Positions 1 through 42,849 of a DNA stretch of 61,418 nucleotides are shown piece after piece (the first letter of the stretch is position 1; each line of letters begins with the position of its first letter). The notes below the pieces were generated by a model. It had not been told where the DNA came from, searched no databases, and worked only from the letters and a program-made list of their open reading frames with translations. The DNA lies in contig JASBTR010000178.1 in assembly GCA_030148325.1 (NCBI GenBank), positions 1 to 61,418 of the forward strand, given 5' to 3'. The DNA is from Gammaproteobacteria bacterium (GTDB taxonomy: Bacteria > Pseudomonadota > Gammaproteobacteria > UBA6429 > Thiohalophilaceae). A program made the position numbers and the translations under genes.

Positions 1-151
1 ATCTTTCATCTATTGTCTGATTTTGGCTAATTTTAGCCCTGCCTGCGTTATTTTTTGCTATCAATGGAGTGCATTGATACGTAAAAAATGCCTTGTCAGG
101 ACTAAAATTTTCTCAAAATCAGCCTAACATCTGAAAGATCAACAGACCCTA
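1..151. repeat. MITE-like element, copy 1 (5' end cut by window edge)
   Basis: This stretch matches 60569..60719 base for base apart from a few substitutions. The complete copy at 60557..60719 shows what is missing here: the left end, which would carry the inverted terminal repeat. The right end TGAAAGATCAACAGACCCTA is present. The left and right arms are imperfectly complementary over nearly the whole length and meet near the centre (TATCAATG and CATTGATA), so the element can fold into one long hairpin. It has no coding capacity. The terminal TA forms part of the TAG stop codon of the adjacent cfa gene on the minus strand. Confidence 0.85.
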
Positions 152-1342
152 GCGTATGGAGCGGTAGTCTTTCTGCTGGCCGCGGTGGGAGAGTACAATC
201 TGCCATAACTGGCCCTGTCCGGATCGGAACAGGCCGGCGCAGACGTGCAGGTAGTATTTCCACATACGGTAGAAACGCTCATCGTAGCGGTTGCGTAATT
301 CAGGCCAGGCGGCGTTGAAGTTTTCCCACCAGGCCATCAGAGTTGGGTCATAGTCGGGGCCGAAATTGTGCCAGTCCTGAATGACAAGATGGGGTTCGAT
401 CTTAGTCGTAATAAGTCGCGCCGAAGGCAGGATGCTGTTGGGAAAGATATAGCGATCGAACCAGGGGTCGTTGTAGCTGACAGTCTCGTAGTCGCCGATG
501 GTGTGCAGAAGAAACAGGCCATCCTCCGCCAGCAGGCGGCGTACAGTATCGAAATAGGTGGCATAGTTTTTCTGACCCACATGCTCGAACATGCCGACAG
601 AGACGATTTTATCGAAACGACCCTGTTGTTCGCGGTAGTCTCTCAGGGCGATCTCTACCGGCAGGCCGGCGCAACGCTCCTGCGCAAACCGCTGTTGTTC
701 GCGTGAAATGGTAATACCCAGCACTTCGACGCCGTAATAGCGGGCTGCATGACTGGCCAGGCCACCCCAGCCGCAGCCGATGTCCAGCAGGCGCTCGCCG
801 GGCTGCAGATCCAGCTTGCGGCAGATAAGTTCCAGCTTGGCCAACTGGGCATCGATGAGGTTATCGGCCTCAGCCCAATAGCCGCAGCTGTAGCTCATGC
901 TGGGGTCAAGCATGGCCTGGTAGATGTCGTTGCCGATATCGTAGTGACGCCTGCCCACCTCATAGGCGCGCTGGCCCATCTGGCGGTTGATGAGGCGGTT
1001 CTGCAGTGTACTGGCGAGGCTGGCGAGCAGCAGGCGCAGGCGGGGCAGGAACCGGATTTCACGGTTGATATCAGCGCGAAACAGACGTTCGAAGAGTTGA
1101 TCTAACTGCGCGGCATCCCACAGGCCATCCATGTAGGCTTCGCCGAAGCCCAGTGAACCCTGGCTGAGGATGCGGTGGTAGGTTGCCGGATCGTATATCT
1201 GGATATCCCAGGGACGATCGCCGTTTAGGTGGATGTCAGCTTTAGCCAGCAGATCAACCAGTATCTGCGGGGCGGTGGCCGGCGCCGGATCGGGTGCACC
1301 GTAAGCCAGGTTGCCATTGATCGGGTGTATATGGTTCATCAT
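149..1342 (-). CDS. cfa: Cyclopropane-fatty-acyl-phospholipid synthase
   Basis: The enzyme transfers a methylene group from S-adenosylmethionine to double bonds of membrane phospholipid acyl chains, hardening the membrane against acid and stationary-phase stress. At 397 residues it is full length for the family. The family motif HYDIGNDIY begins at residue 133, YSCGYW follows near 151, and the SAM-binding loop LLDIGCGWGG is at 185-194; EHVGQKNY lies further on. Two ATGs stand in tandem. AGGAGGG lies only 2 nt before the first and about 5 nt before the second (1339), so the second is the likelier start. The stop codon TAG is shared with the end of a MITE-like element, so the last few codons may have been reshaped by its insertion. 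A TGTCA-N6-type dyad lies about 94 bp upstream. Confidence 0.96.
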   Translation of the reverse strand: MMNHIHPINGNLAYGAPDPAPATAPQILVDLLAKADIHLNGDRPWDIQIYDPATYHRILSQGSLGFGEAYMDGLWDAAQLDQLFERLFRADINREIRFLPRLRLLLASLASTLQNRLINRQMGQRAYEVGRRHYDIGNDIYQAMLDPSMSYSCGYWAEADNLIDAQLAKLELICRKLDLQPGERLLDIGCGWGGLASHAARYYGVEVLGITISREQQRFAQERCAGLPVEIALRDYREQQGRFDKIVSVGMFEHVGQKNYATYFDTVRRLLAEDGLFLLHTIGDYETVSYNDPWFDRYIFPNSILPSARLITTKIEPHLVIQDWHNFGPDYDPTLMAWWENFNAAWPELRNRYDERFYRMWKYYLHVCAGLFRSGQGQLWQIVLSHRGQQKDYRSIR

Positions 1343-1427: not shown

Positions 1428-1443
1428 TGTCACCTGTGAGACA
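1428..1443. promoter_or_regulatory. Crp-family-type dyad upstream of cfa
   Basis: TGTCACCTGTGAGACA keeps the left half-site and the terminal ACA of the consensus TGTCACC-YR-GGTGACA, but the right half is degenerate. It is centred about 94 bp upstream of the cfa start and lies between cfa and the divergent Crp-like fragment. It is one of the weaker members of a nine-site set. Confidence 0.45.
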
Positions 1444-1519: not shown

Positions 1520-1744
1520 TTGAGTGAGCTGGCGACCGACCTGGCCCTGCATGATACGATGGCCCGCCTGGCTCACCTGATTTTGCACAACTACGAAGAG
1601 AGCAGAGTGAATTCGCGGCGTGATCTGTTGCATGGTCTTTCGCATGAGGAACTGGCGCACATGATCGGTACGGTGCGCGTGGTGGTCAACCGCCTGCTCA
1701 AAGAGTTACGGGAGGAGGGCATTATTGAATCTCTACGGGTTTAA
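1520..1744 (+). pseudogene. C-terminal HTH fragment of a Crp/Fnr-family regulator
   Basis: The 74-residue frame holds only the dimerisation helix and helix-turn-helix of a Crp-family regulator. LATDLALHDTM near its N-terminus is also present in the complete regulator at 41432..42181 (residues 147-157). The HTH is at about residues 40-68, with recognition helix GTVRVVVNRLL. No cyclic-nucleotide-type sensor domain is readable upstream, and the only start is a TTG without a good ribosome binding site. The last codons (ESLRV and the stop) fall inside a dispersed repeat that begins at 1728. A decayed paralogue is the best reading. Expression as a small DNA-binding protein is possible but not supported by a start signal. 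Confidence 0.7.
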
Positions 1745-5389: not shown

Positions 5390-5520
5390 TCTGGTTTGTC
5401 TCCAGCACAAATTTGTCGTACGCCTTTGGTAGTCTGGTCATGGCGTTACGGGCACGCGGGTCGCTCAGCTATCGACAACAGACTGTCGGATAAATTGTGC
5501 ATAAATCACCACAACAGGGA

Positions 5521-5536
5521 TGCAACCTGGGTGACA
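5521..5536. promoter_or_regulatory. Crp-family-type dyad upstream of pdhA
   Basis: TGCAACCTGGGTGACA has a perfect right half-site and core. It is identical to the site at 29374 upstream of the glucan phosphorylase gene. It lies between the aldolase stop and the pdhA start, so pdhA is the only gene it can serve from upstream. Confidence 0.65.
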
Positions 5537-12669: not shown

Positions 12670-14046
12670 TTAATCAGATTTAATTTTCTGAGCCAGATGC
12701 TGAATGGGAAGCACTTTGCTGGTTAGCTTTTCAGCGTTTTCTTCGAGTTTCAAAAATTCCCGCTGGATAAAGCCACGACCACTGATACCGCGGTAGAAAA
12801 ATTCGATCACAAGGCTGGCGCCAATGGTGATCCAGGTGCCATAGAAGGCGTTCCTGCTGGTTTGCCACTGATAGTGGAGCAGGAGGATGAAGACACCGGC
12901 AATAATCATGAAGCCACTGGCAATGATGGTGGGATTGCCGCCGTATTGAGAGCGCAATCGCCAGTGGGCGGCTAATACGAACAGATAGATCACCATAAAT
13001 ACGCTGCTGGTAATGGAGGCAATGCCATTCAGGTTGAACATCAGCGCAAATAGCAGGCCCAGTCCGGCGGTGAGGTAGAATCCCTCCATCGAGCCAAACC
13101 AGATCTTACGTTCGAACAAACGGGGCAGTTCACCGTCGCGGGCCAGCGCATAGGCAACATTGGCGCCGCCGAACAGCGTTGCATTTATAGCTGAGGAGAT
13201 GGAAAACAGTGCGCCGATGGCGACCAGGGAATAGCCCAGGTTGCCGAGGAAGGGTTCCGCCGCGACCGCCAGGGCATCGTCCTGAGCCCTGATTAATTCA
13301 GGCAAAGGCAGGTTACCCATGGCAACGGTGGCGACGGAGATATAAACCAGGGTGACGATAAGAATGCTCAGATAAATAGCGCGAGGCACGTTGCGGCTGG
13401 GGTTGATCATGTTCTCTGAGGCATTGGTTACCAGACCAAACCCCATGTAAGAGAGAAAAAAGATAGCTGTGGCATTGAGAATGCTATGAATGCCCTTTGT
13501 ATCCAGCGCCGGTGTGATCTGCTCTGTTTGAATACTGCCGATGCCAAGCACCACGAACAGGCCGAGAATGCCGAGTTTGATCATCACGATAAAGGACTCA
13601 GCCCTGCCGACGGCAGCAGAACCAAACACGCCCAGCGCGGTAAATACCAGGATCACACCCAGCTCGGTAAGTCCCATACCAATGGCATTTGCAGGCAGGT
13701 GGATGAGCGGCAGCAGATAACCGGCAAAGCCTTTGGCAAACAGGGCAATAGAAACAACATAACTGAACCAGAAGAGGAAGCTCAGACTGCCCGTTATAAG
13801 ATTGTCACCGATGCCTCTGAGAATGAATTCCATGGGCCCGGCATTGGAAATGATGCGCCTTCCCAGCTGCGCATAGGAGTAGGCGACGAACAGGGCGGCG
13901 AGTCCGGAAATCAGGAATACCAGGGGCAGGTTGCTGCCGGCGATTCGTGCACCGAGACCAAAGATAGAAAATATGCTGGCACCGATCATGGTGCCGACTG
14001 CCAGGGCAATGGTCTGCCACAAATTGATTTTTTTATTATCCGGCAT
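12670..14046 (-). CDS. APC-family amino acid/polyamine permease
   Basis: 458 residues with about 12 predicted membrane helices. The first helix carries VGTMIGASIFSIFGLGAR, the GxxxGxxIF substrate-binding signature of APC transporters. VTNASENMINPSRNVPRAI between helices 6 and 7 is also typical. A charged tail of about 40 residues follows the last helix. It is related to the permease at 25467..26777. Substrate cannot be assigned; glutamate/GABA-type antiport would suit acid stress but is inference. A dyad of the shared motif lies about 230 bp upstream. Confidence 0.85.
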   Translation of the reverse strand: MPDNKKINLWQTIALAVGTMIGASIFSIFGLGARIAGSNLPLVFLISGLAALFVAYSYAQLGRRIISNAGPMEFILRGIGDNLITGSLSFLFWFSYVVSIALFAKGFAGYLLPLIHLPANAIGMGLTELGVILVFTALGVFGSAAVGRAESFIVMIKLGILGLFVVLGIGSIQTEQITPALDTKGIHSILNATAIFFLSYMGFGLVTNASENMINPSRNVPRAIYLSILIVTLVYISVATVAMGNLPLPELIRAQDDALAVAAEPFLGNLGYSLVAIGALFSISSAINATLFGGANVAYALARDGELPRLFERKIWFGSMEGFYLTAGLGLLFALMFNLNGIASITSSVFMVIYLFVLAAHWRLRSQYGGNPTIIASGFMIIAGVFILLLHYQWQTSRNAFYGTWITIGASLVIEFFYRGISGRGFIQREFLKLEENAEKLTSKVLPIQHLAQKIKSD

Positions 14047-14199: not shown

Positions 14200-14268
14200 C
14201 GGGCTTGCCGAGGTGCTCCGCTATCCTTGATGCGATAAATTATTCTAGGGATATGTCGGTGGTTACGC

Positions 14269-14284
14269 TGTCATGCAGGTGACA
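14269..14284. promoter_or_regulatory. Crp-family-type dyad upstream of the APC permease
   Basis: TGTCATGCAGGTGACA has both outer half-sites TGTCA and TGACA perfect with a 6-bp spacer; the inner CC is replaced by TG. It is about 230 bp before the permease start and 31 bp past the ATPase stop, the furthest from a start in the set. Confidence 0.45.
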
Positions 14285-20369: not shown

Positions 20370-20777
20370 TCAGAAGCCGAGGAGGGACGGATGCTCCGGT
20401 CCCATCTGCATCCAGAAAATGGCGTCAAACAGAAACCACTGCAGGAAGATAAAGCCGGCTATGGCCAGCAGCGCCATAATTACGGCTGCCAGCAGCGCGT
20501 TACCAAAACTGTCAACTTCAAAACCCGGTACCAGAGCGGCAGTCAGTTTCACCATGAACGCATTAATTAATAACGCAAACAGTCCAAAGGTGAGTACCGT
20601 CAGCGGCATGGTCAGAAGCCACAGTATAGGTCGTATAATAGCATTGATCGTGCCCAGCACGAACGCCGCCAGCAGCAAATCACCGGTCGATCGGGCGTGG
20701 ATGCCAGGCACAACCAGAGTGACCAGCCAGAGACCCAGCGCGGTAATTAACCAGATCAGCAGAACTCCGATCAGCAT
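20370..20777 (-). CDS. Small four-helix membrane protein (phage holin 4/YvlD-like)
   Basis: 135 residues with four predicted membrane helices. TINAIIRPILWLLTMPLTVL is the conserved stretch of the phage-holin-4-like family (YvlD in Bacillus), whose function is unknown and which is mostly not phage-borne. It lies 6 bp before acetate kinase on the same strand and is the first gene of the ackA-xfp-ATPase operon. A near-perfect dyad of the shared motif is centred 78 bp upstream. Confidence 0.8.
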   Translation of the reverse strand: MLIGVLLIWLITALGLWLVTLVVPGIHARSTGDLLLAAFVLGTINAIIRPILWLLTMPLTVLTFGLFALLINAFMVKLTAALVPGFEVDSFGNALLAAVIMALLAIAGFIFLQWFLFDAIFWMQMGPEHPSLLGF

Positions 20778-20847
20778 AGCAATATCCCTTTGTGAAACAA
20801 CAATGAGTATTGGTAGAGTTATTGTGCGCGTATTAGATACCGGTATC

Positions 20848-20863
20848 TGTCACCCAGGTTACA
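20848..20863. promoter_or_regulatory. Crp-family-type dyad between the ackA operon and the divergent gene
   Basis: TGTCACCCAGGTTACA differs from the ideal palindrome at one position. It is centred 78 bp before the minus-strand gene at 20777 and 88 bp before the plus-strand gene at 20944, so a single bound dimer could serve both. Confidence 0.7.
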
Positions 20864-20943
20864 GCTAAAGGGCAAACAGGGTTATAAAGTAGTTGCAGGC
20901 TGCAAGAGTATCCCACTGCTAAGCTGACAAAAGGCGACATCTC

Positions 20944-21531
20944 ATGGCAAACGTAAAGCAGGAAGAAAACAGGTATGAGCATGCTCGTCTGGTGCTGGCT
21001 ATTGGTATTTATAGTGATGAGGAAAAGGCCCTGCAAACCCTCGAAAAGTTGATCAAGGATGACTTCCCGGCAGATCGGCTTTCGTTGCTACGTAAGGCCG
21101 GCGGTACGGGTGATGACATGTTGGGACTGGCTTATACCAATACCAAAGAACGGGTAAAAGCCTGGGGCAGGCATGGCGTTGTCTGGGGGGTTTTATGGGG
21201 GATATTGACCGGTGCAACCGGACTCTTTGTGTTGCCGGGTATTGGGCCGTTACTCGCCGCAGGTCCGGTTGTGGAAACACTGGGTGGAGCTATCGCCGGT
21301 GCGACAGTGGCAGGGGGCGCAATGGCGGGTGCAGCGGCCCTGACTCAACTGGCCGGCGCGCTGCACAGGATTGGTGTCCCCGCATCGGCTATTGAGCAGA
21401 TACATCGCGCAATCGAATCAGACCATTATGTAATTATCCTGCACTGTGAACCTGAACAGGCCAGCCATTGCGGCATGCGCCTGGGAATGGCGGGAGCGGA
21501 TCCGGTTATTGTGATGCCCATCGAACATTGA
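20944..21531 (+). CDS. Gly-rich membrane-hairpin stress protein
   Basis: 195 residues. The N-terminal third, with LAIGIYSDEEKALQTLEKLI, resembles the fold of general-stress YflT-like or DUF1269 proteins. A central Gly/Ala-rich hydrophobic hairpin (VWGVLWGILTGATGLFVLPG, then AGPVVETLGGAIAG) follows, and a second ferredoxin-like half contains GVPASAIEQIHRAIESDHYV. A shorter paralogue with the same layout is at 42337..42849. Both are preceded by a TGTCA-type dyad at a similar distance. Function is unknown; conserved structure and context suggest a stress-induced membrane protein. Confidence 0.75.
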   Translation: MANVKQEENRYEHARLVLAIGIYSDEEKALQTLEKLIKDDFPADRLSLLRKAGGTGDDMLGLAYTNTKERVKAWGRHGVVWGVLWGILTGATGLFVLPGIGPLLAAGPVVETLGGAIAGATVAGGAMAGAAALTQLAGALHRIGVPASAIEQIHRAIESDHYVIILHCEPEQASHCGMRLGMAGADPVIVMPIEH

Positions 21532-21555: not shown

Positions 21556-23607
21556 TCAGGCCATCAACACCACAACCGAACGGGCTTTTACCCGGTAGTT
21601 CAGGCTTTGCAGCGCCACCTCCTGACCCGGTTCAAGAATGTCATGGGGACTCTCCCGGGCGGTATCGATGACGCGGCGCCAGTTGTTTAGAGCGCCCTCC
21701 TGAATGCTGAAAACAAGATCTTCCCACCAGGCGTTAATCATGACATAGATATCCCGATCATCCTGCGAGGCGCCGCTGAGGTGATAGGCCAGGCTATGAG
21801 AATCACGGGAGCGGTCGACATCCGGCCCAATGCCATACCAGTGCACATCATCGCGCCAGAAACGACTGCGAGCCAGTGATGGGTGCGCTTTACGAAAGGC
21901 AATCATCTGTTTGAAGAAGCGGAAGATATCCTGATTGGACTGGAGTAAATCCCAGTTCAGCCAGCTAATCTCGTTATCCTGATTGTAGGGGTTGTTGTTG
22001 CCGGACTGAGTCTGCATAAATTCATCGCCGGCGCGAATCATCGGTGTGCCGTTGGCCAGCATCAGCAGACAGCAGAAATTTTTGATCTGGCGTTTGCGCA
22101 AACGCATAACCGCGTCGGGAACAGCCGTATCGCCTTCCCAGCCGCTATTCCAGGAATAATTATGATCGGTGCCATCTGTGTTGCCATGGCCGTTGACTTC
22201 GTTATGTTTATAGTTGTAGGAGACCAGATCATAGAGCGTGAAACCGTCATGGGCAGTGATAAAGTTAATGCTCTGGTAAGCGTGGTAGGCCTGCATGCGT
22301 GAATCCGGAAACAGATCATCGCTGCCGTAAAGCCGCTGCATGAGCGAATTGACCAGGCCACTGTCGCCACGGACGAAGCGGCGAATGTCATCGCGAAACT
22401 GTCCGTTCCATTGTTGCCAGCTGATGCCGGGGAAACTGCGCCCGAGTTGATAACTGGAAATGTCCCAGGCTTCAGCGATCAAACGCACTCCGGCAAGATC
22501 GGGATCGGAACGAATAGCGGAGATAATCGGCGCATCTTCAAGATTAACCGAACCGTCGCTGCGGCGAGTGAAAATTGAAGCCAGATCAAAGCGGAAGCCA
22601 TCCACCTGCATGTCCTTGACCCAGTAACGCAGGCTGTCGAGCACCATGCTGCGCACATAGCGGTTGGCGGTATGCAGGACATTGCCGGTACCCGCGTCGT
22701 TGCGGTAATAACGACGATCGTTTTCGAGCAGGTAATAAGTTGTGTTATCGAGGCCGCGAAAACTGTAGGTTGGTCCCTGCTCATTGCCTTCGCCGGTATG
22801 GTTATAAACTACATCCAGAATGACTTCGATATTCGCACGATGAAATGCGCTGACCATTTGTCTGAATTCATTCAGCAGAGCGGCGGGCGACTCAGCCCTG
22901 GCATAGAGGTGGTGTGGTGCAAAAAAACTCAGCGGCATGTAGCCCCAGTAATCATTCTCCTGTGGATCAAACTGGAAAATTGGCATCAGTTCGACTGCGG
23001 TAATACCGAGAGATTGTAAGTAGGGGATTTTTTCAACCAGGCCTGAAAAGGTGCCGCGCCTGTCGGCGGCGACCGCGGAACCAGCACGCCGGGTAAATCC
23101 TTTTACATGCAACTCGTAGATGACTGTGTCGTGAGTGTGGCGTGGTTTTTGATCCTGGCTCAGGATATTACTATCGGCCTGCGTATGAATCACCCCGAGC
23201 GGTGCCCTGCCGATGTTTGAACCTGCCTCAATGGCGGCCTGACGATCAAACGTCGGTGGAAAAAACACAGCCCGGCTATACGGATCCAGCAGCTGCTTTT
23301 GTGAGTCAAAGCGATGACCTTGCTGCAGATCGAACGGGCCATCAACCTGATAAGCGTAATAGTGCGCCCCTTCCACCGTTGTCGCCGGCAGGCGGCAGTG
23401 CCAGATACGACCGGATTTGTTCAGCAAGGGGTTGAATGTGTAGCTGTAAACCGGGGTTTGCGTATCATTTTCACGGTATAGATGTAATCTAACCGCCGAG
23501 GCATGTTTGCTATAGAGGGCGAAATTCCAGGCCTGCTGCGAGGCAACAAAATTTACACCCAGTGGTCTGGCAGATCCTTCCAGTGCTTCCCAGTTATTCA
23601 CAGGCAT
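21556..23607 (-). CDS. glgX: Glycogen debranching enzyme (isoamylase type)
   Basis: Hydrolyses alpha-1,6 branches of glycogen left by the phosphorylase. 683 residues. An N-terminal CBM48 domain (LGVNFVASQQAWNFALYSKH) precedes the GH13 barrel. The catalytic residues are seen as VDGFRFDLASIF (nucleophile Asp), LIAEAWD (acid Glu) and FITAHDGFTLYDLVSYN (third Asp). VVYNHTGEGNEQGPT is also typical. The gene is divergent from the STAS-USP fusion, and a dyad is centred 72 bp before its start. It pairs functionally with the phosphorylase at 26786..29311. Confidence 0.94.
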   Translation of the reverse strand: MPVNNWEALEGSARPLGVNFVASQQAWNFALYSKHASAVRLHLYRENDTQTPVYSYTFNPLLNKSGRIWHCRLPATTVEGAHYYAYQVDGPFDLQQGHRFDSQKQLLDPYSRAVFFPPTFDRQAAIEAGSNIGRAPLGVIHTQADSNILSQDQKPRHTHDTVIYELHVKGFTRRAGSAVAADRRGTFSGLVEKIPYLQSLGITAVELMPIFQFDPQENDYWGYMPLSFFAPHHLYARAESPAALLNEFRQMVSAFHRANIEVILDVVYNHTGEGNEQGPTYSFRGLDNTTYYLLENDRRYYRNDAGTGNVLHTANRYVRSMVLDSLRYWVKDMQVDGFRFDLASIFTRRSDGSVNLEDAPIISAIRSDPDLAGVRLIAEAWDISSYQLGRSFPGISWQQWNGQFRDDIRRFVRGDSGLVNSLMQRLYGSDDLFPDSRMQAYHAYQSINFITAHDGFTLYDLVSYNYKHNEVNGHGNTDGTDHNYSWNSGWEGDTAVPDAVMRLRKRQIKNFCCLLMLANGTPMIRAGDEFMQTQSGNNNPYNQDNEISWLNWDLLQSNQDIFRFFKQMIAFRKAHPSLARSRFWRDDVHWYGIGPDVDRSRDSHSLAYHLSGASQDDRDIYVMINAWWEDLVFSIQEGALNNWRRVIDTARESPHDILEPGQEVALQSLNYRVKARSVVVLMA

Positions 23608-23671: not shown

Positions 23672-23687
23672 TGTCACCCAGGTGGCA
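23672..23687. promoter_or_regulatory. Crp-family-type dyad between glgX and the USP gene
   Basis: TGTCACCCAGGTGGCA has a single mismatch to the palindrome. It is centred 72 bp before glgX and about 148 bp before the divergent stress-protein gene. Confidence 0.65.
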
Positions 23688-23827: not shown

Positions 23828-24646
23828 ATGTTCGAAATAATTCCCGTTGATGACAGGCATATTCTTGCGTTCAAGGTGATTGGCAAACTCACTGATGCGG
23901 ATTATCAGGCGTTCCTTCCCGAACTGGAGAAACTGATTCAGGAACAGGGCAGTATTTCACTATATATAGAACTGGAAGATTTTCAGGGCTGGGAAGCAAA
24001 AGCTGCGTGGGCTGATCTGAAGTTTGATTTACAGCATGATAAGGATTTCAGGCGTATTGCGATTGTTGGTGATACTTTTCTGGAACATTCAGGGATCGTG
24101 CTGGCAAATTTTTTCACCCGCAGCGAAATGCGTTTTTTCAGTAAAGATGAAGCAGAATCCGCCTGGGACTGGTTAAAAGAAAATTTGCAGGCAACGGAAT
24201 CAATAAAACCCGTGCAACCCTACCGGAAAATTCTACTGGCCATTGATTTTTCTTCACACTCTGAGCGGGCTGCTCTTCGTGCTCTGGAGTTGTCACGCTG
24301 CCACGAGGCCAAACTGGAGGTCCTGCATGTCATCGAGGATCCGGTGTTTTATACGGAGGCTGATGCCATTAGTGCTGATATTCCACTGGGTAAGGAAACA
24401 CTGAAAGAGCAGGCGGAGGAGCGCATGCGTGAATTCGCAAAACGTGTGGGAATGGATAAGGATGCTATACTCGAGGTGCAGTGGGGGCGTCCTAAATGGG
24501 CGATTGTCTTCTGGGCGCGTAAAAAAGGTGTTGATCTGGTTATTGTTGGTTCACATGGGCGGCATGGCGTCGAACGCCTGCTGGGTTCAGTCAGCAGCAG
24601 TGTTCTACATTCATCGCATTGTGATGTGCTGGTGGTTAAATACTAA
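23828..24646 (+). CDS. SpoIIAA-like (STAS) domain fused to universal stress protein domain
   Basis: 272 residues. Residues 1-120 match the SpoIIAA-like/STAS fold: FEIIPVDDRHILAFKVIGKL, then IELEDFQGWEAKAAW. Residues 135-272 are a UspA domain opening with RKILLAIDFSSHSERAA and ending with the ATP-binding loop VGSHGRHGVERLLGSVS (G-2x-G-9x-GS). The start at 23828 has GGAGGT 7 nt before it; the frame is open 18 bp further upstream but without a ribosome site. The two domains are usually separate proteins. The fusion may couple membrane or anti-sigma-like signalling to stress adenine-nucleotide sensing; this is inference. Confidence 0.88.
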   Translation: MFEIIPVDDRHILAFKVIGKLTDADYQAFLPELEKLIQEQGSISLYIELEDFQGWEAKAAWADLKFDLQHDKDFRRIAIVGDTFLEHSGIVLANFFTRSEMRFFSKDEAESAWDWLKENLQATESIKPVQPYRKILLAIDFSSHSERAALRALELSRCHEAKLEVLHVIEDPVFYTEADAISADIPLGKETLKEQAEERMREFAKRVGMDKDAILEVQWGRPKWAIVFWARKKGVDLVIVGSHGRHGVERLLGSVSSSVLHSSHCDVLVVKY

Positions 24647-26785: not shown

Positions 26786-29311
26786 TCAGCGCTGCCAGAC
26801 AATCAGCTGTACTTCAGCGGGAACGCGGGCATCCGCATGATACGGAATAACACGGGCGGTGAAATCCGTTGCCGGCCGATCTGTGTTGATGTTTGCATGG
26901 AAACAGTAACCGTGAATAGCGCCGGTAATTTTTTCCCCGCAGTCGCAGTCGTGCACCTGCGGCGCATCGCCGTTGATACCTTCGGCATATAGCTGGACCC
27001 GAATTTGTTCGGGCAGTATTTCACCGAGGTAGACCTGTATATGAAACAGCCAGCCATCGTCAGCACTGGTCACGGTCAGGTTGCCGAAGTGTATCTGCTC
27101 CCAGTGTAGCTTAAGTGTGCTGTGCCAGTCATGAAGTTGTTTTGCCAGCTGTCCCTGCTGAGGGCAACGTTTTTCATGCGCTATATTTGCCGGGTGATAA
27201 AGTTGCCGGACATATTCCTGCACCATGCGGTTGCTGCTGAATTGCGGCGCCAGTTGCATCATGCTCTTGCGGATGCGTGTCAGCCAGTTACGCGGCAGGC
27301 CCTGTGCATCACGCGTGTAGAACATGGGGATGATTTCATTTTCCAGACGTTGATAAAGTTGTTCGGCTTCTACTGCATCCCAGCCTAAATCAGCATCATG
27401 CTCTTTACCGTCGCCCAGCGACCAGCCGGTTTCTTCCGAGCAGGCTTCGGCCCACCAGCCATCCAGTTCCGAAAGATTGAGACCGCCATTAACCAACACC
27501 TTCATACCACTGGTGCCACTGGCTTCCCATGGGCGGCGGGGCGTGTTGATCCAGACGTCAATGCCCTGCACCAGTTGTTGCGCCAGTGCGATATCGTAAT
27601 CTTCCAGGAAAACCGCGTGACCACGGATAGCAGGCTGACGAACAAACTGAACCCACTCCTGGATCATGCGCTGGCCCTCACTGTCGTTGGGGTGCGCCTT
27701 GCCGGCAATAATCAATTGCACCGGTTGTGCATGATCGGTCAGTAGACGTGTCAGGCGCTGGCTGTCGTGCAATAACAGGTTTGGCCGTTTATAGGTCGCA
27801 AAACGCCGGGCAAAACCCAGGGTTAATGCATTCGGATCCAGCACCTGCGCCACCTGTTCCACCTGCGCCGGACTGGCCCCGGCCTGGCCCAGTTGCAGGG
27901 CCAGACGTTTGCGTGCGTAGTGCACCAGATCCTCACGTTCACTGGCGCGCAGCTTCCACAGGGTTTCATCATCCAGTGTCTGGATAGATTGGTGCAGGGC
28001 ATCGGTGTTGCCAAGCCAGCGTTGTTTGCCGCAGGCTTTGGTCCAGAGCTGGTCAGCCCAGGGTGAATCCCAGCTCGGTACATGTACGCCATTAGTTACA
28101 TGGCTGACCGGGACTTCAGTCTGCGGCCAGCGTGGATAAAGTTCACTGAACAGCTGGCGACTGACTTCACCGTGCAGACGGCTGACTGCATTACTGTGCG
28201 CACAGCCGCGCATGGCCAGATAAGCCATATTAAATGCTTCTGTCTGGTCCTCCGAATTTTTGCGGCCCAGCGCCAGCAGCGCCTGCAGTGAGAGTCCGGT
28301 ATGGGTGAGGAAATTGTGGAATATCGGGAAATATTTGTCGATAAACTGGGGTGGAAAAGTGTCGAAACCCGCTGCTACCGGGGTGTGAGTGGTAAAAACA
28401 TTGCTTGCGCGAGTTGCCCACAGGGCCGTCTGAAACGAACAGGCTGCCTGATCCATAAAGCTGCGCGCACGTTCCAGTACTACAAAGGCGGCATGCCCTT
28501 CATTGAGATGACAGACTGAAACTTCTTCTCCCACGGCTTTTAACAAGCGCCAGCCACCGATACCGAGCACTAGTTCCTGCAGGAAGCGCAGTTCGTGGCT
28601 GCCGTCGTAAAGTTTATTGGTAATGCCACGATCGCGCGGGCTGTTGAGTGGATCATTGCTGTCCAGTAAATACAGGCGGACACGACCGACTATTACCTGC
28701 CAGATGCGTAACTTTAACTGTCGTCCCGGCAGGTTCAGGGGTACATGCAACCATTTTCCGGATTTGCTGAGGACCGGCTGAATCGGCAGGGTAGACGGTT
28801 CATTATAGGGATACACGGCCAACTGGCGGCCATCGGTGTCGAGCATCTGACGGAAATAGCCTTCCTGGTAGAGCAGGCCGACACCCACAAGTGGGATCCC
28901 CAGATCGCTGGCGGTTTTGAGAAAATCTCCGGCGAGAATGCCCAGACCGCCGGCATAAACAGGCAGGGCTTCGCCGAGACCAAATTCCATGCTGAAGTAG
29001 GCGACCTTGCCAACTTCAAACTGCTGTTGTGCCTCACTGTACCAGCCGGGACTGGCGAGGTAGTTTTCCCGCTCATCAGACAGGCGGTCCAGTTCCTGAC
29101 GGAATGCTGCGTCATTGGCAAGCTGTTCCAGGCGCTGGTAAGGCACATCCTGTAAAAGTATCCAGGGGTTTTTACTGCGTTCCCAGGCTTCTTTATCAAG
29201 CGTACGCCAGAGGGTGTCAGCGCTGTGGCTCCAGGTCCAACGCAGATCCAGCGCCAGATCGGTGAGCAGTTCGAGTCCCGCCGGTAACGGGCGCGGTAGA
29301 AAAGCGGGCAT
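26786..29311 (-). CDS. glgP: Alpha-glucan phosphorylase (DUF3417 type)
   Basis: Releases glucose 1-phosphate from glycogen or maltodextrin with inorganic phosphate. 841 residues, with the DUF3417 N-terminus (LALDLRWTWSHSADTLWRTL) of the short bacterial type. YFSMEFGLGEALPVYAGGLG is near residue 105, and EASGTSGMKVLVNGGLNLS holds the pyridoxal-phosphate Lys. The C-terminal extension of about 100 residues after ENEIIPMFY is also typical. A dyad is centred 70 bp upstream. With GlgX it would supply hexose phosphate to the phosphoketolase branch. Confidence 0.94.
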   Translation of the reverse strand: MPAFLPRPLPAGLELLTDLALDLRWTWSHSADTLWRTLDKEAWERSKNPWILLQDVPYQRLEQLANDAAFRQELDRLSDERENYLASPGWYSEAQQQFEVGKVAYFSMEFGLGEALPVYAGGLGILAGDFLKTASDLGIPLVGVGLLYQEGYFRQMLDTDGRQLAVYPYNEPSTLPIQPVLSKSGKWLHVPLNLPGRQLKLRIWQVIVGRVRLYLLDSNDPLNSPRDRGITNKLYDGSHELRFLQELVLGIGGWRLLKAVGEEVSVCHLNEGHAAFVVLERARSFMDQAACSFQTALWATRASNVFTTHTPVAAGFDTFPPQFIDKYFPIFHNFLTHTGLSLQALLALGRKNSEDQTEAFNMAYLAMRGCAHSNAVSRLHGEVSRQLFSELYPRWPQTEVPVSHVTNGVHVPSWDSPWADQLWTKACGKQRWLGNTDALHQSIQTLDDETLWKLRASEREDLVHYARKRLALQLGQAGASPAQVEQVAQVLDPNALTLGFARRFATYKRPNLLLHDSQRLTRLLTDHAQPVQLIIAGKAHPNDSEGQRMIQEWVQFVRQPAIRGHAVFLEDYDIALAQQLVQGIDVWINTPRRPWEASGTSGMKVLVNGGLNLSELDGWWAEACSEETGWSLGDGKEHDADLGWDAVEAEQLYQRLENEIIPMFYTRDAQGLPRNWLTRIRKSMMQLAPQFSSNRMVQEYVRQLYHPANIAHEKRCPQQGQLAKQLHDWHSTLKLHWEQIHFGNLTVTSADDGWLFHIQVYLGEILPEQIRVQLYAEGINGDAPQVHDCDCGEKITGAIHGYCFHANINTDRPATDFTARVIPYHADARVPAEVQLIVWQR

Positions 29312-29373
29312 GGCATTAACCCTTCAGGTATTGAGTTCCTGTGGAAAGCTTACGTGAGTTGCCTGTCGTGAGA

Positions 29374-29389
29374 TGCAACCTGGGTGACA
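29374..29389. promoter_or_regulatory. Crp-family-type dyad upstream of glgP
   Basis: TGCAACCTGGGTGACA, identical to the site before pdhA. It is centred 70 bp before the glgP start and lies between glgP and the convergent end of the DedA gene. Confidence 0.7.
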
Positions 29390-29433: not shown

Positions 29434-30018
29434 TTATTTTCGCAAGACTGAATTATGCTGGAATTTTCTATGCCGCCACCACCAGAAAGCGAGCATGACG
29501 AGGAGGACGGCCAGTAGTAACTGTTCAATATGCGCTATTCTGCCCAGCAATTTTTCCGCACCGGTTCCAATCAGGTATCCGCTGCCGACACCGGCTATGG
29601 CCCATAGCGATGCGCTGAACAGATTAATCAGTGCGAAACGTCCAGCCGGGTAGCCATACACAGCCAGCAATACCGGTGTGACTATCCGTGTCCCATAGAT
29701 AAAGCGGCAGCCAAAAGCGAGCCAGTCGGATTTTGATGTCAGCCGAGGACGGGCTTTATTGGCCTGCTGCGCAAACCACTGAAACCGGGAAAGCATGTTT
29801 GTTCCATAGCGGCGACCAAGATGAAAGCCTGTTTGATCCCCGATAAAAGCGCCTGATGCTGCGGTGAACATCGTCCATTCGAGTGGTAGTGCTCCCTGAT
29901 GGCAGAGTATGCCGGCCAGTACAATAATAGTTTCACCTTCAAAGAATGCACCGAGCAGCACCAGGACAAGACCATAGTGTGCGATAAACAGTAACCAGTC
30001 CTGTGTTTCTATCGGCAT
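29434..30018 (-). CDS. DedA/SNARE-associated family membrane protein
   Basis: 194 residues with four to five membrane segments. FFEGETIIVLAG near residue 25 and GRRYGTNMLSRF match the DedA signature, and FIYGTRIVTPVLLAVYGYPA the conserved Arg-bearing loop. DedA proteins are inner-membrane lipid transporters or flippases needed for envelope integrity. The gene follows the DUF202 gene by 32 bp on the same strand. Confidence 0.85.
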   Translation of the reverse strand: MPIETQDWLLFIAHYGLVLVLLGAFFEGETIIVLAGILCHQGALPLEWTMFTAASGAFIGDQTGFHLGRRYGTNMLSRFQWFAQQANKARPRLTSKSDWLAFGCRFIYGTRIVTPVLLAVYGYPAGRFALINLFSASLWAIAGVGSGYLIGTGAEKLLGRIAHIEQLLLAVLLVMLAFWWWRHRKFQHNSVLRK

Positions 30019-30050: not shown

Positions 30051-30446
30051 TTAATCAGCCAGATACCATAAACAGCTGAGTGCAATTATCGAACATCCCG
30101 CAAGCAACAGACTTAGACTCCTGATCATGGTGCGCGGCATTGCCTCAACCTCAAGGTGAGATACTTTTATGTGCAAATGACTATAGCGCCAGGCGGCGAG
30201 CAAAAATGCCGCCGCGCTAAATAGAATAAGCACCGTGACGATAATTCGGATGCTCCACAACGGTAACACGTTTCTCATAAATTTTGCTGTTCCGAGTCCT
30301 GTTACCAGTGCAGCCAGTCCGGTTCGAATCCAGGCAGCATAGGTTCTTTCATTGGCAAGTACCGTTCTGTCCAGCGCCAGATTTGTTCGGCTTATATCAG
30401 CCGTTGTGGTTTTCTGCTTCTCATCAATCATGTCAGGCATTGCCAT
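30051..30446 (-). CDS. DUF202 (YidH-like) membrane protein
   Basis: 131 residues. LALDRTVLANERTYAAWIRTG is the signature of DUF202; three membrane helices follow (for example IIVTVLILFSAAAFLLAAW). Function is unknown; homologues are small inner-membrane proteins. It appears to be first in a two-gene unit with DedA, with a TGTAACC dyad centred 63 bp upstream. Confidence 0.85.
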   Translation of the reverse strand: MAMPDMIDEKQKTTTADISRTNLALDRTVLANERTYAAWIRTGLAALVTGLGTAKFMRNVLPLWSIRIIVTVLILFSAAAFLLAAWRYSHLHIKVSHLEVEAMPRTMIRSLSLLLAGCSIIALSCLWYLAD

Positions 30447-30501
30447 ATGCAGGTGCTAACGAGGGATAATTAAAATTTTAGTTGGCTAATGTTGTAAAAG
30501 A

Positions 30502-30517
30502 TGTAACCTGGATGACA
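30502..30517. promoter_or_regulatory. Crp-family-type dyad upstream of the DUF202-DedA pair
   Basis: TGTAACCTGGATGACA, matching both half-sites with one change in each. It is centred 63 bp before the DUF202 start. Confidence 0.6.
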
Positions 30518-38255: not shown

Positions 38256-38918
38256 TTATCCAGCCGGGTTTTCGTTAACAGCATTAATGACAATACTGTC
38301 GTGGATCAGTTCTGCTTCGGCCTCAGCCAGTGCCTTGCTGGCCTGTTTGGTATTTTTTTCAGACAGTGATTTGAGGGCGGATTCGACTTTTCCAAGTGTT
38401 GCCGCAACCGGCAGATCGACAAAGCTGTATTGCAGTTCGACACCCACATTTTTGAGCGTCTCGACAACTTTTTTGTGTTTGCCGCGAACTACATCCAGGT
38501 GAGTGGTTTCCAGTTTTTGTTTAAGCTGTTCGGTAATCTCCACTTCCTTGCTGATCCCCAGTTGCGAATAGATGGGGAGCAGGCCGGAGGTGTTGCCTTT
38601 CTTTGCGCTGACTTCTGATTTCAGTTTTGTCAATAAATCCCGCGCCTGTTCCAGATACTGGCGCGCTTCTTTCTCATGTTGTTCAGAGAGTAGCTGGCGC
38701 GCTGCGACAATGTATGACATGGCTTTGCGCCCGTTTCGTGCAAGCACGTCGGCCTGCTGAATTTGCGCCTCCCGGGCGCTCAATGGTGCGGCTTTACCGG
38801 TTGCTGTTGAGCTGGCTGGCTGTGTCATTGCTGTATTAGCTATGACTGCTGTGCTGCCAAACGTCATACCTGCCAGCACAAGCAGTGTGACGGCTGAATT
38901 TTTTCTGATGCTGTTCAT
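38256..38918 (-). CDS. YfdX family periplasmic protein
   Basis: 220 residues with a signal peptide (LLVLAGMTFGSTAVIA, cleavage likely after IANT-A). The mature part is helical: QIQQADVLARNGRKAMSYIV, EARQYLEQARDLL, LPVAATLGKVESALKSLSEK and KALAEAEAELIHDSIV match YfdX. In enterics YfdX is under acid-response control, and periplasmic chaperone-like activity has been suggested. The gene appears monocistronic. Confidence 0.82.
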   Translation of the reverse strand: MNSIRKNSAVTLLVLAGMTFGSTAVIANTAMTQPASSTATGKAAPLSAREAQIQQADVLARNGRKAMSYIVAARQLLSEQHEKEARQYLEQARDLLTKLKSEVSAKKGNTSGLLPIYSQLGISKEVEITEQLKQKLETTHLDVVRGKHKKVVETLKNVGVELQYSFVDLPVAATLGKVESALKSLSEKNTKQASKALAEAEAELIHDSIVINAVNENPAG

Positions 38919-40425: not shown

Positions 40426-41115
40426 TTATCCGACTTCCGGCGTCGGCTCGCGTAGACAATAGCCTGCACCGCGCACGGTCTGCAGCAGGGGCGGATCAAA
40501 ATCCCTGTCGATCTTGTTGCGCAGGCGGCTGATGTGTACATCGATGATGTTGGTCTGTGGATCGAAGTGATAATCCCAGACGCTTTCCAGCAACATGGTG
40601 CGAGTGACGATCTGCCCGGCGTGCTGCATAAGGTATTCGAGGATCAGGTATTCGCGCGGTTGCAGGTCAATGGATTTGCCCGCCCGTTTGACTGAGTGCG
40701 TCAGGCGATCCAGCTCCAGATCCGCCACCGTCAGCAGGCTGCTATCGGGTTTGATTTCCCCGCGTCGCAGCAGGACTTCGATGCGTGCCAGCAATTCGGA
40801 AAAAGCGAAGGGTTTAACCAGGTAGTCATCGCCGCCTGCCTTTAAGCCCTCGACTCGGTCGTCCACTTCTCCCAGCGCGCTGAGAATGATGACCGGCGTC
40901 TGTTTGTCAGAGCTGCGCAGGGTTTTCAGAATCGAGAGGCCGTCGAGCGCAGGCAGCATGCGATCGAGGATGATAATCGCGTAGTTGTTTTCCAGCGCCA
41001 TAAACAGGCCGTCTTTGCCGTCATTGGCCTGATCGACCGTATGCCCATGCTCTTTCAGACCTTTGGCAATGTAATTGGTTGTTTCGGTGTCGTCTTCGAT
41101 GACAAGAATGCGCAT
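40426..41115 (-). CDS. OmpR-family response regulator
   Basis: 229 residues. The receiver has the acidic pair ED at residues 7-8, phospho-acceptor Asp 51 (LDRMLPALDG), and Lys in LVKPFAFSEL. The C-terminal winged helix includes LQPREYLILEYLMQHAGQIV and DVHISRLRNKID. It is divergent from the Crp-family gene across a 316-bp gap that holds a direct repeat of TGTAAC at an 11-bp period, a spacing used by this family for tandem half-sites, so autoregulation is plausible. Confidence 0.94.
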   Translation of the reverse strand: MRILVIEDDTETTNYIAKGLKEHGHTVDQANDGKDGLFMALENNYAIIILDRMLPALDGLSILKTLRSSDKQTPVIILSALGEVDDRVEGLKAGGDDYLVKPFAFSELLARIEVLLRRGEIKPDSSLLTVADLELDRLTHSVKRAGKSIDLQPREYLILEYLMQHAGQIVTRTMLLESVWDYHFDPQTNIIDVHISRLRNKIDRDFDPPLLQTVRGAGYCLREPTPEVG

Positions 41116-41244
41116 AATATTTTATCCGGCGGAAGCGGCTACAGCCTTTTTTGCTGCCAATGATAGCAGGATCGTTCGCCAGCATATCTGTTTCCAGCTG
41201 AAGTACGCATGGATAAAACATTAAACATTGTTAACCTTACTGTC

Positions 41245-41261
41245 TGTAACCACTTTGTAAC
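41245..41261. promoter_or_regulatory. Direct repeat, candidate OmpR/PhoB-type operator
   Basis: TGTAAC-CACTT-TGTAAC repeats a hexamer at an exact 11-bp period, as bound by OmpR/PhoB-family dimers. A related TGTTAAC is at 41229. It lies 130 bp before the response regulator and 170 bp before the divergent Crp-family gene. No other gene is seen in the 316-bp gap. Confidence 0.5.
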
Positions 41262-41431
41262 GAATTTATATTAAGTATCGTTGTCGCATAGTTGAAACAA
41301 CAGGCGTAGCATAGGATCAAGCCGCTATTTTTTTTACTATGCAGTGTCGGGGCAGATGTTCGGCAGGGCCAGGGTTCCATTGCCCGGTTGTCGAATTACG
41401 ATAATAACGTATTTCATAAGGAGAACTGTGT

Positions 41432-42181
41432 ATGAAACGGGATCCTGTCTATTACAGTCACTGTAAACATATTCTTACCCACTCGCCTTTGTTTGTGGGA
41501 CTGGCGGACGAATTGCTGGATGACATGTTGTTGCTGTTTCGGCGCGATACCTGGCGTCGTGGACTACAGCTGGACCCGGTTATTTTCCAGGAGCGTTTTT
41601 ATCTTCTGATTGAAGGCCGACTCGAGGTTATGCGCATCAACCCGGAAACCGGCAGAAGCATTACCCTGTTTTTACTTGGTCCAGGAGACGGCGTCGATAT
41701 AGCGACCCTGCTAAACAGTAAGCCGCACGAAATAGCGCCCGTGGCCCTGGATGATGTCGCCCTGATTTCTGTACCCATACCGGATGCCCGCAGCTGGATT
41801 GATCTTCATCCGGAATTCAATCGCAACTTTTTGCCCTACCTGGGGGAACAAATGCGGCAAATGGAAGATCTGGCTACCGATCTGGCTCTGCACGACACCA
41901 TGACGCGGCTGGCTCGCCTGATCCTGCGCCATGTTGTGCCGCATCACCCTCAGTCTGCCGATGGCGGGCATCATCTGAATTTGATTAATGATCTGCATGA
42001 CGAGGCGCTGGCGCGCATGGTCGGGTCGGTGCGCCAGGTCGTTAACCGCCATCTTCAACACTGGCGCAAGCAGGGCATTCTACACAAACACAAGTTCCAC
42101 AGTGAAGTTGCTGATCTGGAGAGCCTGCACCAGTATGCGGGTGAGGCGTTGCCACAGACGAAGCAGCAAAAAAAGGCTTAA
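41432..42181 (+). CDS. Crp/Fnr-family transcriptional regulator
   Basis: 249 residues. The N-terminal half is a cyclic-nucleotide-type beta roll (HSPLFVGLADELLDDMLLLF, then FYLLIEGRLEVMRINPETGR). It lacks the Fnr cluster Cys pattern and the canonical cAMP-contact motif, so the ligand is unknown. A long dimerisation helix contains MEDLATDLALHDTMTRLARL, and the HTH is at about 186-217 with recognition helix GSVRQVVNRHL. AGGAG precedes the ATG. Dyads of exact Crp geometry (TGTCA-N6-TGACA) lie just downstream at 42230 and at eight more places in the window, so this is the most likely protein to bind them. That link is inference. Confidence 0.92.
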   Translation: MKRDPVYYSHCKHILTHSPLFVGLADELLDDMLLLFRRDTWRRGLQLDPVIFQERFYLLIEGRLEVMRINPETGRSITLFLLGPGDGVDIATLLNSKPHEIAPVALDDVALISVPIPDARSWIDLHPEFNRNFLPYLGEQMRQMEDLATDLALHDTMTRLARLILRHVVPHHPQSADGGHHLNLINDLHDEALARMVGSVRQVVNRHLQHWRKQGILHKHKFHSEVADLESLHQYAGEALPQTKQQKKA

Positions 42182-42229
42182 AACCTGCCGTACAGGCTTA
42201 TCATCTCTCGCCAGTGGCCTTACTGTGTC

Positions 42230-42245
42230 TGTCACCTGGGTGACA
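42230..42245. promoter_or_regulatory. Perfect palindromic dyad, the consensus site of the set
   Basis: TGTCACCTGGGTGACA: the two 7-bp arms are exact reverse complements across the central TG. It lies 48 bp after the Crp-family regulator stop and is centred about 100 bp before the next gene. It is the strongest member of the nine sites. Confidence 0.75.
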
Positions 42246-42336
42246 GCCATATTTCCACCTGTAGCTCATTATTATGACTCAGTGACTGAAACCGGAGCAT
42301 CGCCCGGGCAGAGTTGTCACTGTTTCGTAGAATGCG

Positions 42337-42849
42337 ATGAGCAAAAAAAATTGTTGTGTTTCTATTTACCCGACCCACCAGGCTACTGAGCAGGCGCTCA
42401 GTGAATTGCAACAAGCGGGCGTTGATCTGAGGCAGGTGTCGATTGCCGGCAAGGGTTGTCAGAGTGAGGCGCATCCGATCGGGTTTTACAACGTCGGTGA
42501 CCGTATTCGCTATCGGGGGCGTCAGGGTAATTTCTGGGTTGGCCTGTGGGGGCTATTGTCGGGTGCAGCATTTTTCTGGGTACCCGGTTTTGGGCCACTG
42601 GCGGCGGCAGGGCCTTTTGTCGACTCGCTGATGTGCGGGCTCGACGGTGTTGCCATCGGTGGTGGTTTTAGTGTTTTTGGCGCTGCGCTTTACAATATGG
42701 GGATCCCCAGAGACAGCATTAACCAGTATGAGCAGGCCATCAAGGCAGACCAGTGTCTGTTGATTGTTCATGGTGAACGTGATGCTGTCGAACATGCCTG
42801 TGAAATTTTGCACAGCGAAATGCAGCAGGTGACCGTGCACCGAGCCTGA
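42337..42849 (+). CDS. Gly-rich membrane-hairpin stress protein (short paralogue)
   Basis: 170 residues with the same layout as 20944..21531: an N-terminal ferredoxin-like half (CVSIYPTHQATEQALSELQQ), a Gly-rich hydrophobic hairpin (WVGLWGLLSGAAFFWVPGFG, then LAAAGPFVD) and a C-terminal half with IPRDSINQYEQAIKADQCLL. The shared pattern VPGxGPLxAAGPxV is the clearest link. The ATG has no strong ribosome site. A perfect dyad is upstream. Function unknown. Confidence 0.78.
   Translation: MSKKNCCVSIYPTHQATEQALSELQQAGVDLRQVSIAGKGCQSEAHPIGFYNVGDRIRYRGRQGNFWVGLWGLLSGAAFFWVPGFGPLAAAGPFVDSLMCGLDGVAIGGGFSVFGAALYNMGIPRDSINQYEQAIKADQCLLIVHGERDAVEHACEILHSEMQQVTVHRA

Follow-up and report, generated by a model that had tools for sequence, protein, structure and literature searches.

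The window, by which we mean the whole stretch of 61,418 nucleotides that was analysed, contains a gene for a Crp/Fnr-superfamily regulator, several genes for energy-reserve and stress functions and, in addition, nine predicted operators, which would serve about eleven promoters. The features on which the analysis relies are the following.

1428-1443, minus strand: predicted operator TGTCTCACAGGTGACA, before the cyclopropane-fatty-acid synthase gene 149-1342 (minus); TATTCT 22 nt after it
1520-1744, plus strand: 74-aa remnant, reduced to the HTH, of a second paralogue of Val type (GTVRVVVNRLL), grouping with L014-L016
2038-2053: weaker predicted operator TGTAACCTGGGTTGCT, before the DUF2934 gene 2132-2449 and gene 2453-2752 (PilZ-like by eye, no Pfam hit)
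5521-5536, minus strand: predicted operator TGTCACCCAGGTTGCA, before the pyruvate dehydrogenase-type E1 alpha/beta genes 5410-3334 (minus); -10-like CACAAT at 5494-5499
14269-14284, minus strand: predicted operator TGTCACCTGCATGACA, before the amino-acid permease gene 12670-14046 (minus); -10-like TAGAAT at 14242-14247
20848-20863: predicted operator TGTCACCCAGGTTACA, between gene 20944-21531 (plus) and minus-strand genes starting with that of a 135-aa membrane protein, 20370-20777
23672-23687: predicted operator between divergent genes, for a debranching enzyme, 21556-23607 (minus), and a universal stress/SpoIIAA-like protein (plus, likely ATG at 23828)
29374-29389, minus strand: predicted operator, again TGTCACCCAGGTTGCA, before the glycogen/alpha-glucan phosphorylase gene 26786-29311 (minus); weak -10-like TAAGCT at 29347-29352
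30502-30517, minus strand: predicted operator TGTCATCCAGGTTACA, before the DUF202 gene 30051-30446 (minus) and the VTT/DedA-like gene 29434-30018 (minus); -10-like TAAAAT at 30475-30480
41432-42181, plus strand: regulator ORF, 249 aa, ATG start, Crp/Fnr superfamily
42230-42245: predicted operator TGTCACCTGGGTGACA, located 48 bp beyond the regulator stop codon, with the ATG of the YflT-like gene following after 91 bp
42267-42272, plus strand: predicted -10 hexamer CATTAT, assigned from its position 21 nt after the 42230 operator
42337-42849, plus strand: YflT-like protein, 12% Gly (Pfam YflT 21.1 bits, below the cut-off of 26.2)

All nine operator-like sites lie upstream of gene starts, at distances of 55 to 222 bp. 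The minus-strand genes beyond the 20848 site are those of the 135-aa membrane protein (MLIGVLLIWLITALG...), a homologue of which follows a site in the genome G116, and then of AckA, a phosphoketolase and a P-type ATPase. On the other side of the same site, gene 20944-21531 gave no Pfam hit and is homologous to the YflT-like gene at 42337 (30.6%, E 2e-25), of which a further homologue, at L131:8896-9456, exceeds the YflT cut-off. At 23672 and at 20848 one operator is placed between divergent genes with hexamers 21 to 22 nt away on both sides, as if it served two class II promoters: the former has TAATAA (weak) at 21 nt on one side and TAGAAT at 22 nt on the other, and the latter has TAAAGT (20885-20890) and CACAAT (20821-20826), both 21 nt off. 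The gene of a YfdX-family protein (38256-38918, minus strand) adjoins a kinase/response-regulator pair and a MoxR-Bat-type cluster, and no operator at up to 1 mismatch was found around it.

A preliminary description of this locus had reported a perfect dyad 48 bp behind the regulator gene and ahead of a Gly-rich gene, and this position is correct; the arms are 7 bp long (TGTCACC/GGTGACA) and not 5 bp. Similarly, the consensus TGTCA-N6-TGACA given there is right in its outer bases, but the six inner bases are not free, being mostly CCYRGG in the window clade. The pairing of the regulator with the motif also held, but the site beside the regulator, which had been taken as the regulator's own, is not evidently autoregulatory here, as the dyad stands ahead of the next gene and is one of nine. 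In the region ahead of the regulator's own gene (41116-41431) we found no site at up to 2 mismatches, the best match having 4, and autoregulation in the window genome was rejected on this ground; in G116 and L044, sites do precede the regulator gene.

The regulator is a member of the Crp/Fnr superfamily, with the beta-roll and the Crp-type HTH which characterize it. Pfam HTH_Crp_2 scores 38.7 bits on it (cut-off 27) and cNMP_binding 26.6 bits, slightly below its cut-off of 27.5. The AlphaFold2 model, built on an alignment of 37 sequences, has a mean pLDDT of 85.9 and presents a Crp-type beta-roll, a long helix and a winged HTH, in agreement with the beta-roll previously read in the sensor half. 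The solved structures nearest to the model are those of M. tuberculosis CRP with cAMP and of GlxR (Foldseek E 1.3e-18), and the full-length comparison with M. tuberculosis CRP gave a VIA Z of 24.1 and an rmsd of 2.1 over 221 residues.

Two absences noted in the preliminary description, of the Fnr cysteine set and of the canonical cAMP-contact motif, were both borne out. Fnr needs cysteines, and the window regulator has a single one, C11, and therefore no Fnr cysteine set, the four Fe-S cysteines of the Fnr/Anr type being absent from it. In E. coli CRP, cAMP is contacted by E72, R82, S83, R123, T127, and S128; in the alignment (E. coli numbering) all six are replaced in the window regulator, by Ile, His, Glu, Gln, Met, and Glu, respectively. 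Across the 37 family members, E72, R82, S83, and T127 are retained in none, R123 in 6, and S128 in 4. The analysis likewise agreed with the preliminary description in assigning no particular effector to the protein.

The sequence of the recognition helix was correctly given as GSVRQVVNRHL, with Q202 at the position of CRP E181. Its description as unlike that of Crp goes too far, because both recognition-helix arginines of CRP (R180 and R185) are retained, with the replacement of E181 by Gln and of T182 by Val, and the helix is therefore closer to CRP than had been stated. The Arg equivalent to R180 occurs in all 37 members and that equivalent to R185 in 33, the other 4 having Lys. At CRP position 181, Val is found in 20 members, Gln in 16 (including the window regulator), and Pro in 1, while Glu, the residue of cAMP-CRP, is found in none of the 37.

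The preliminary description had indicated that membership in a characterised clade with a different site would speak against it; judged by NCBIfam equivalogs, the protein showed no such membership, as none of those listed came near its cut-off. The best one, NtcA (TIGR03697), scored 32.2 bits against a cut-off of 244.95, and for four further listed equivalogs the score was far below each cut-off. Among the 37 members, the best E-value against any NCBIfam family was 1.8e-15, and NtcA was the family matched by most of them (36/37 at E 1e-5 or better).

Concerning the motif, the window has 38 matches to TGTCA-N6-TGACA with 2 mismatches allowed, compared to 23.0 +/- 4.4 in 100 shuffles of the window, none of which reached 38 (largest 37). 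The 16-mer TGTCACCTGGGTGACA, again at up to 2 mismatches, has 10 places in the 2.99-Mb genome, 8 of which are in the 61-kb window contig that makes up 2% of the assembly (binomial p 1.4e-12, or 5e-11 without the reported site itself); the weaker 2038 site is the ninth in the window, beyond these 8. Read backwards, the 16-mer has no match in the genome at the same tolerance. As for the two matches outside the window contig, one lies within a coding ORF and one ahead of an ORF, and at neither could we see a -10-like hexamer at the expected distance.

The class II activator position of CRP and Fnr is -41.5. When 21 nt separate a 16-bp site from the -10 element after it, the centre of the site falls at -41.5, and the sites tend to show this arrangement. 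Among 36 window-clade sites (up to 1 mismatch, with no filter for position in genes), the TATAAT-like hexamer was best at offset 21, where 20 sites score at least 4 of 6, compared to 3.0 sites on average and 10 at most for the remaining offsets (z 6.5); for each offset in the same manner, the better-scoring side of a site was used. The choice of offset 21 was made post hoc on this first set, and the other two sets were tested later: it came first again in 16 Val-type sites (9/16, z 6.0) and, among distant Gln-type genomes, in 19 sites matching TGTCA-N6-TGACA exactly (11/19, z 4.5). The class II spacing was thus found in three site sets, even if some of the hexamers in the window are weak (TAATAA and TAAGCT, for instance).

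On the basis of these sequence features and of the distribution of the motif described below, we propose, with a probability of about 80%, that the window regulator is a dedicated class II activator of the surrounding stress and energy-reserve island, acting via its own operators. A dimer of the regulator would bind 16-bp operators of the form TGT(C/A)ACC-YR-GGTGACA, which would be centred at -41.5 and take the place of the -35 element, and the bound regulator would recruit RNA polymerase in class II activation. In the window, the functions switched on would be glycogen breakdown, the acetate kinase-phosphoketolase route, pyruvate dehydrogenase E1, cyclopropane-fatty-acid synthase and stress proteins; chaperone genes, which in some relatives stand at sites of this type or next to the regulator gene, may be added to these. 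We infer activation rather than repression from the promoter geometry. Crp/Fnr proteins can repress, and a site at -41.5 overlaps the -35 region, where binding could block transcription; however, a distance of 21 nt from the site to a -10 that is mostly imperfect, as seen in three site groups, is the class II activator arrangement, and the divergent promoters with a common site carry their hexamers at 21 to 22 nt on both sides, so that a regulator which binds the predicted sites but mainly represses appears unlikely.

The association of the regulator with the motif extends to other genomes. In G002, which belongs to the same genus (regulator orthologue at 87-88%), the island is rearranged, and sites are kept before the genes of glycogen phosphorylase (with the identical sequence TGTCACCCAGGTTGCA), the debranching enzyme, the permease and the homologue of the 42337 protein, as well as between AckA and the 20944 homologue. 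Both G002 and G116 have sites before the pyruvate dehydrogenase genes, with a 115-aa ORF between. In G116, a single-contig genome (orthologue at 71-73%), 7 of the 14 matches at up to 2 mismatches fall within 957-981 kb, a 24-kb stretch inside which the regulator gene itself is found (980003-980722), and in G240 and G325, too, sites occur on the contig carrying the regulator.

The preliminary description had suggested looking for further genomes with the same regulator-motif pair. A genome was taken as a carrier if it had a match to the regulator of E 1e-20 or better, which was the case for 25 of 369 genomes of the class. The exact motif TGYMACCYRGGTKRCA occurs in 9/25 carriers, 6 of which have two or more copies, versus 11/344 non-carriers, none of which has two (Fisher 7e-7 for presence and 5e-8 for two or more), and the reversed pattern in 3/369 genomes. 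This pattern was shaped on the sites of G000, G116, and G240; without these three genomes the co-occurrence figure is weaker, with the exact motif in 6/22 carriers and two or more copies in 3/22 (p 2e-4 each). The exact motif is absent in 16 of the 25 carriers, and 4 of these (G093, G273, G159, and G307) have TGTCA-N6-TGACA sites with other inner bases. In the outer Val-type clades (G010, G024, G025, G391, G191, and others), scans for an operator gave only scattered one-mismatch matches.

At closer range, TGTCACCYRGGTGACA was searched at up to 1 mismatch in 58 relatives: it matches in all 3 genomes with a close orthologue (G000-G002) and in 7 of the 55 others (with two matches in G014), none of these 7 carrying a close relative of the regulator, and the reversed-pattern control matches in 2/58. 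A phosphoketolase was found in 22 of the 58 relatives. Over 148 kb of xfp neighbourhoods, taken from 15 genomes with no regulator relative at E 1e-20, no site at up to 2 mismatches was found, versus 10 in window positions 1-43000; four of the 15 stretches (G013, G003, G012, and G006) are shorter than 6 kb, and the control therefore leans on the other 11, while G009 and G040, both with a phosphoketolase match and without the regulator, were left out of it. An xfp-type control in the Val-type genomes G025 and G010 likewise gave no sites.

Homologues of the glycogen phosphorylase, P-type ATPase, universal stress and YflT-like genes are located near the regulator in relatives of other families. 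Furthermore, in G113 and G100 the regulator gene is preceded by genes for Clp-type and FtsH ATPases, a DnaJ gene lies beside the regulator in G116, and in G198 two sites (L126 2414 and 2502, G198:C119) are found between divergent HSP70 and ClpB genes, which suggests that the subfamily may also control chaperones. L013 and L066 are on the same contig as L041, and L070 and L135 on the same contig as L042; each protein was counted once in A1.

The operators differ between regulators with Gln and with Val at CRP position 181. With base 4 freed in the pattern (TGYNACCYRGGTNRCA), matches were obtained in 14 of 30 genomes. In the Gln-type genomes (G000, G001, G002, G116, G240, G325, G198, and G189), 22 of 23 sites have at least one C half-site, the sole exception being the single G189 site (A/T), probably a chance match; its hexamer at offset 21 scores 2/6, and that of the single G186 site 3/6. 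In the Val-type genomes (G214, G247, G347, G100, G113, and G186), none of the 17 sites has a C half-site, and in the first five of these genomes all 32 half-sites have A or T at base 4. The operator half-sites are TGTC and TGTA. From the correspondence of site and regulator type we infer that the reading of operator base 4 falls to the residue at CRP position 181, with Gln accepting C or A and Val accepting A or T. The Gln/Val change occurs one time on the tree, where the 16 Gln rows form one clade (support 94/97, slightly below the level that the tool stars); for the window clade, made up of 8 rows, the support is 97/98. The correlation therefore counts as one event, however small its p.

The window also holds a Val-type gene, now only the 74-aa remnant at 1520-1744. 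It precedes the DUF2934 and PilZ-like genes, and in L016 an intact relative stands before two genes of the same look; the remnant is apparently a decayed sister regulator. Gln/Val heterodimers were considered as the source of mixed C/A half-sites and are not needed, because mixed sites occur in G240 and G325, which have no second relative at E 1e-20, and in G002, whose other matches are at 29% identity or less (E 7e-7 or worse).

It could also be that the motif is bound by another factor, either the OmpR-type response regulator encoded at 40426-41115 or another Crp/Fnr protein, and that the 41432 gene is only linked to it. The response regulator and the histidine kinase adjoin the 41432 gene (in G002 they are on the same contig, 47 kb off), and other Crp/Fnr-like proteins are encoded in the genome (C113 and C137). 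However, the size, the dyad and the -41.5 position of the sites are Crp/Fnr-like, and the operator differs between Gln-type and Val-type genomes at the very base which the residue at CRP position 181 should recognise. Moreover, the motif is absent around xfp in the 15 regulator-less genomes, which have other Crp/Fnr-like matches, and in G116 the regulator sits amid the sites, with no homologue of the kinase/response-regulator pair in four annotated stretches. We consider this explanation decidedly improbable. Finally, 7-bp arms could form a hairpin, and chance gives some 2-mismatch sites per genome, but the dyads of the window lie upstream of gene starts, are clustered in one contig and are position-locked to -10-like hexamers, which leaves hardly any room for transcription terminators, REP-like repeats or chance palindromes.

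As regards the signal to which the proposed activator would respond, cAMP bound in the classical way is unlikely. In the pocket, the D89 position is occupied among the 37 members by Asp (23), Cys (7), Asn (6), or Ser (1), and H99 is found in 30, Glu or Asp at position 100 in 27, and Q140 in 28. One may speculate that a ligand or a metal is held in this D89/H99/E100/Q140 pocket, and our guess is that the effector is energy- or anoxia-related and acts in the pocket so remodelled.

Adjacent pairs of Crp-like paralogues occur as L077/L095 (G107), L078/L094 (G111), and L076/L097 (G247), and at G214:C283 and G100:C177; one G214 copy contains an internal stop, and one G100 match is partial. In the pairs of G107, G111, and G247, one member has Cys at the D89 position together with His99, and its partner has lost His99. 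A division of sensing between paired paralogues is possible.

It is tempting, albeit doubtful, to consider that the operator set was rewritten once, with the change from Val to Gln at CRP position 181, that the geometry and much of the stress and energy target set were kept, and that this was coupled to a new sensor chemistry, with an Asp/Cys-His-Asp/Glu cluster in the place where the cAMP phosphate would be. In this scenario, the tandem paralogues seen in several genomes could pair as heterodimers and bind half-sites of mixed type.

Activators of the Crp/Fnr type with a private regulon are an already known kind. The present proteins appear, from sequence comparison, to form a subfamily of Crp-like regulators that has an operator and a regulon of its own, and no description of the subfamily, operator or regulon was found in the literature searched, in which coverage of subscription journals was sparse. 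For this subfamily, present in 25 of 369 genomes, the analysis predicts a specific operator, describes the geometry of the promoters and brings together a coherent group of candidate targets, namely, reserve use, fermentation, stress proteins and, in some relatives, chaperones. It also predicts that a single residue, which is Gln or Val at position 181, acts as a switch of specificity, and natural regulons appear to have shifted from one operator to another. Since the effector is unlikely to be classically bound cAMP, identifying it could bring a new entry to the list of Crp/Fnr signals.

Among known systems, M. tuberculosis CRP and Corynebacterium GlxR, which are actinobacterial cAMP-CRP proteins, are the best match of the window regulator in both sequence and fold (family profile E 3.8e-38), with both recognition-helix arginines in common. 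Different from them, the window regulator has neither the G-E-L nor the R-T of their phosphate cassette in the alignment, and Gln instead of Glu at position 181. M. tuberculosis CRP and GlxR read TGTGA-type sites, the Glu at 181 being the residue that reads TGTGA. NtcA, the cyanobacterial nitrogen regulator, governs a regulon of another kind, and its site, GTA-N8-TAC, resembles the Val-type operator TGTAACC..GGTTACA.

CooA is a heme protein that senses CO. In CooA-1 of C. hydrogenoformans, the equivalent of CRP E181 is Gln, as in the window regulator, with a profile match of 86 bits for CooA versus 134 bits for M. tuberculosis CRP. According to PMC545781, the CooA sites of Desulfovibrio and R. 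rubrum have the consensus TGTCGGCNNGCCGACA, starting with TGTC, and they share with the island sites the 16-bp geometry and this start, while the inner bases differ (GGC versus ACC). The likeness to CooA, that is, Gln at 181 and the TGTC start, is a resemblance only, and the CooA helix and the CooA sites come from different species. At the level of the superfamily, a 2025 study (PMC12531629) describes the base-contact residues of the DNA-binding domain as largely conserved.

According to PMC9104464, the low-oxygen Fnr/Anr regulon, exemplified by the Burkholderia lxa locus, comprises universal stress proteins and functions of anoxic survival, some of the targets being similar to those of the island. 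The Anr-type site TTGAT-N4-ATCAA, an example of which appears in the same paper, is unlike the island sites; in the loci around the relatives of the regulator, it has 0 exact and 8 one-mismatch matches, in 7/29 loci. Lastly, at the level of protein families, the locus resembles tLST in the YfdX and DUF308 proteins of the window and in the HSP70, Clp, FtsH, and DnaJ genes that stand beside the relatives of the regulator or their sites.
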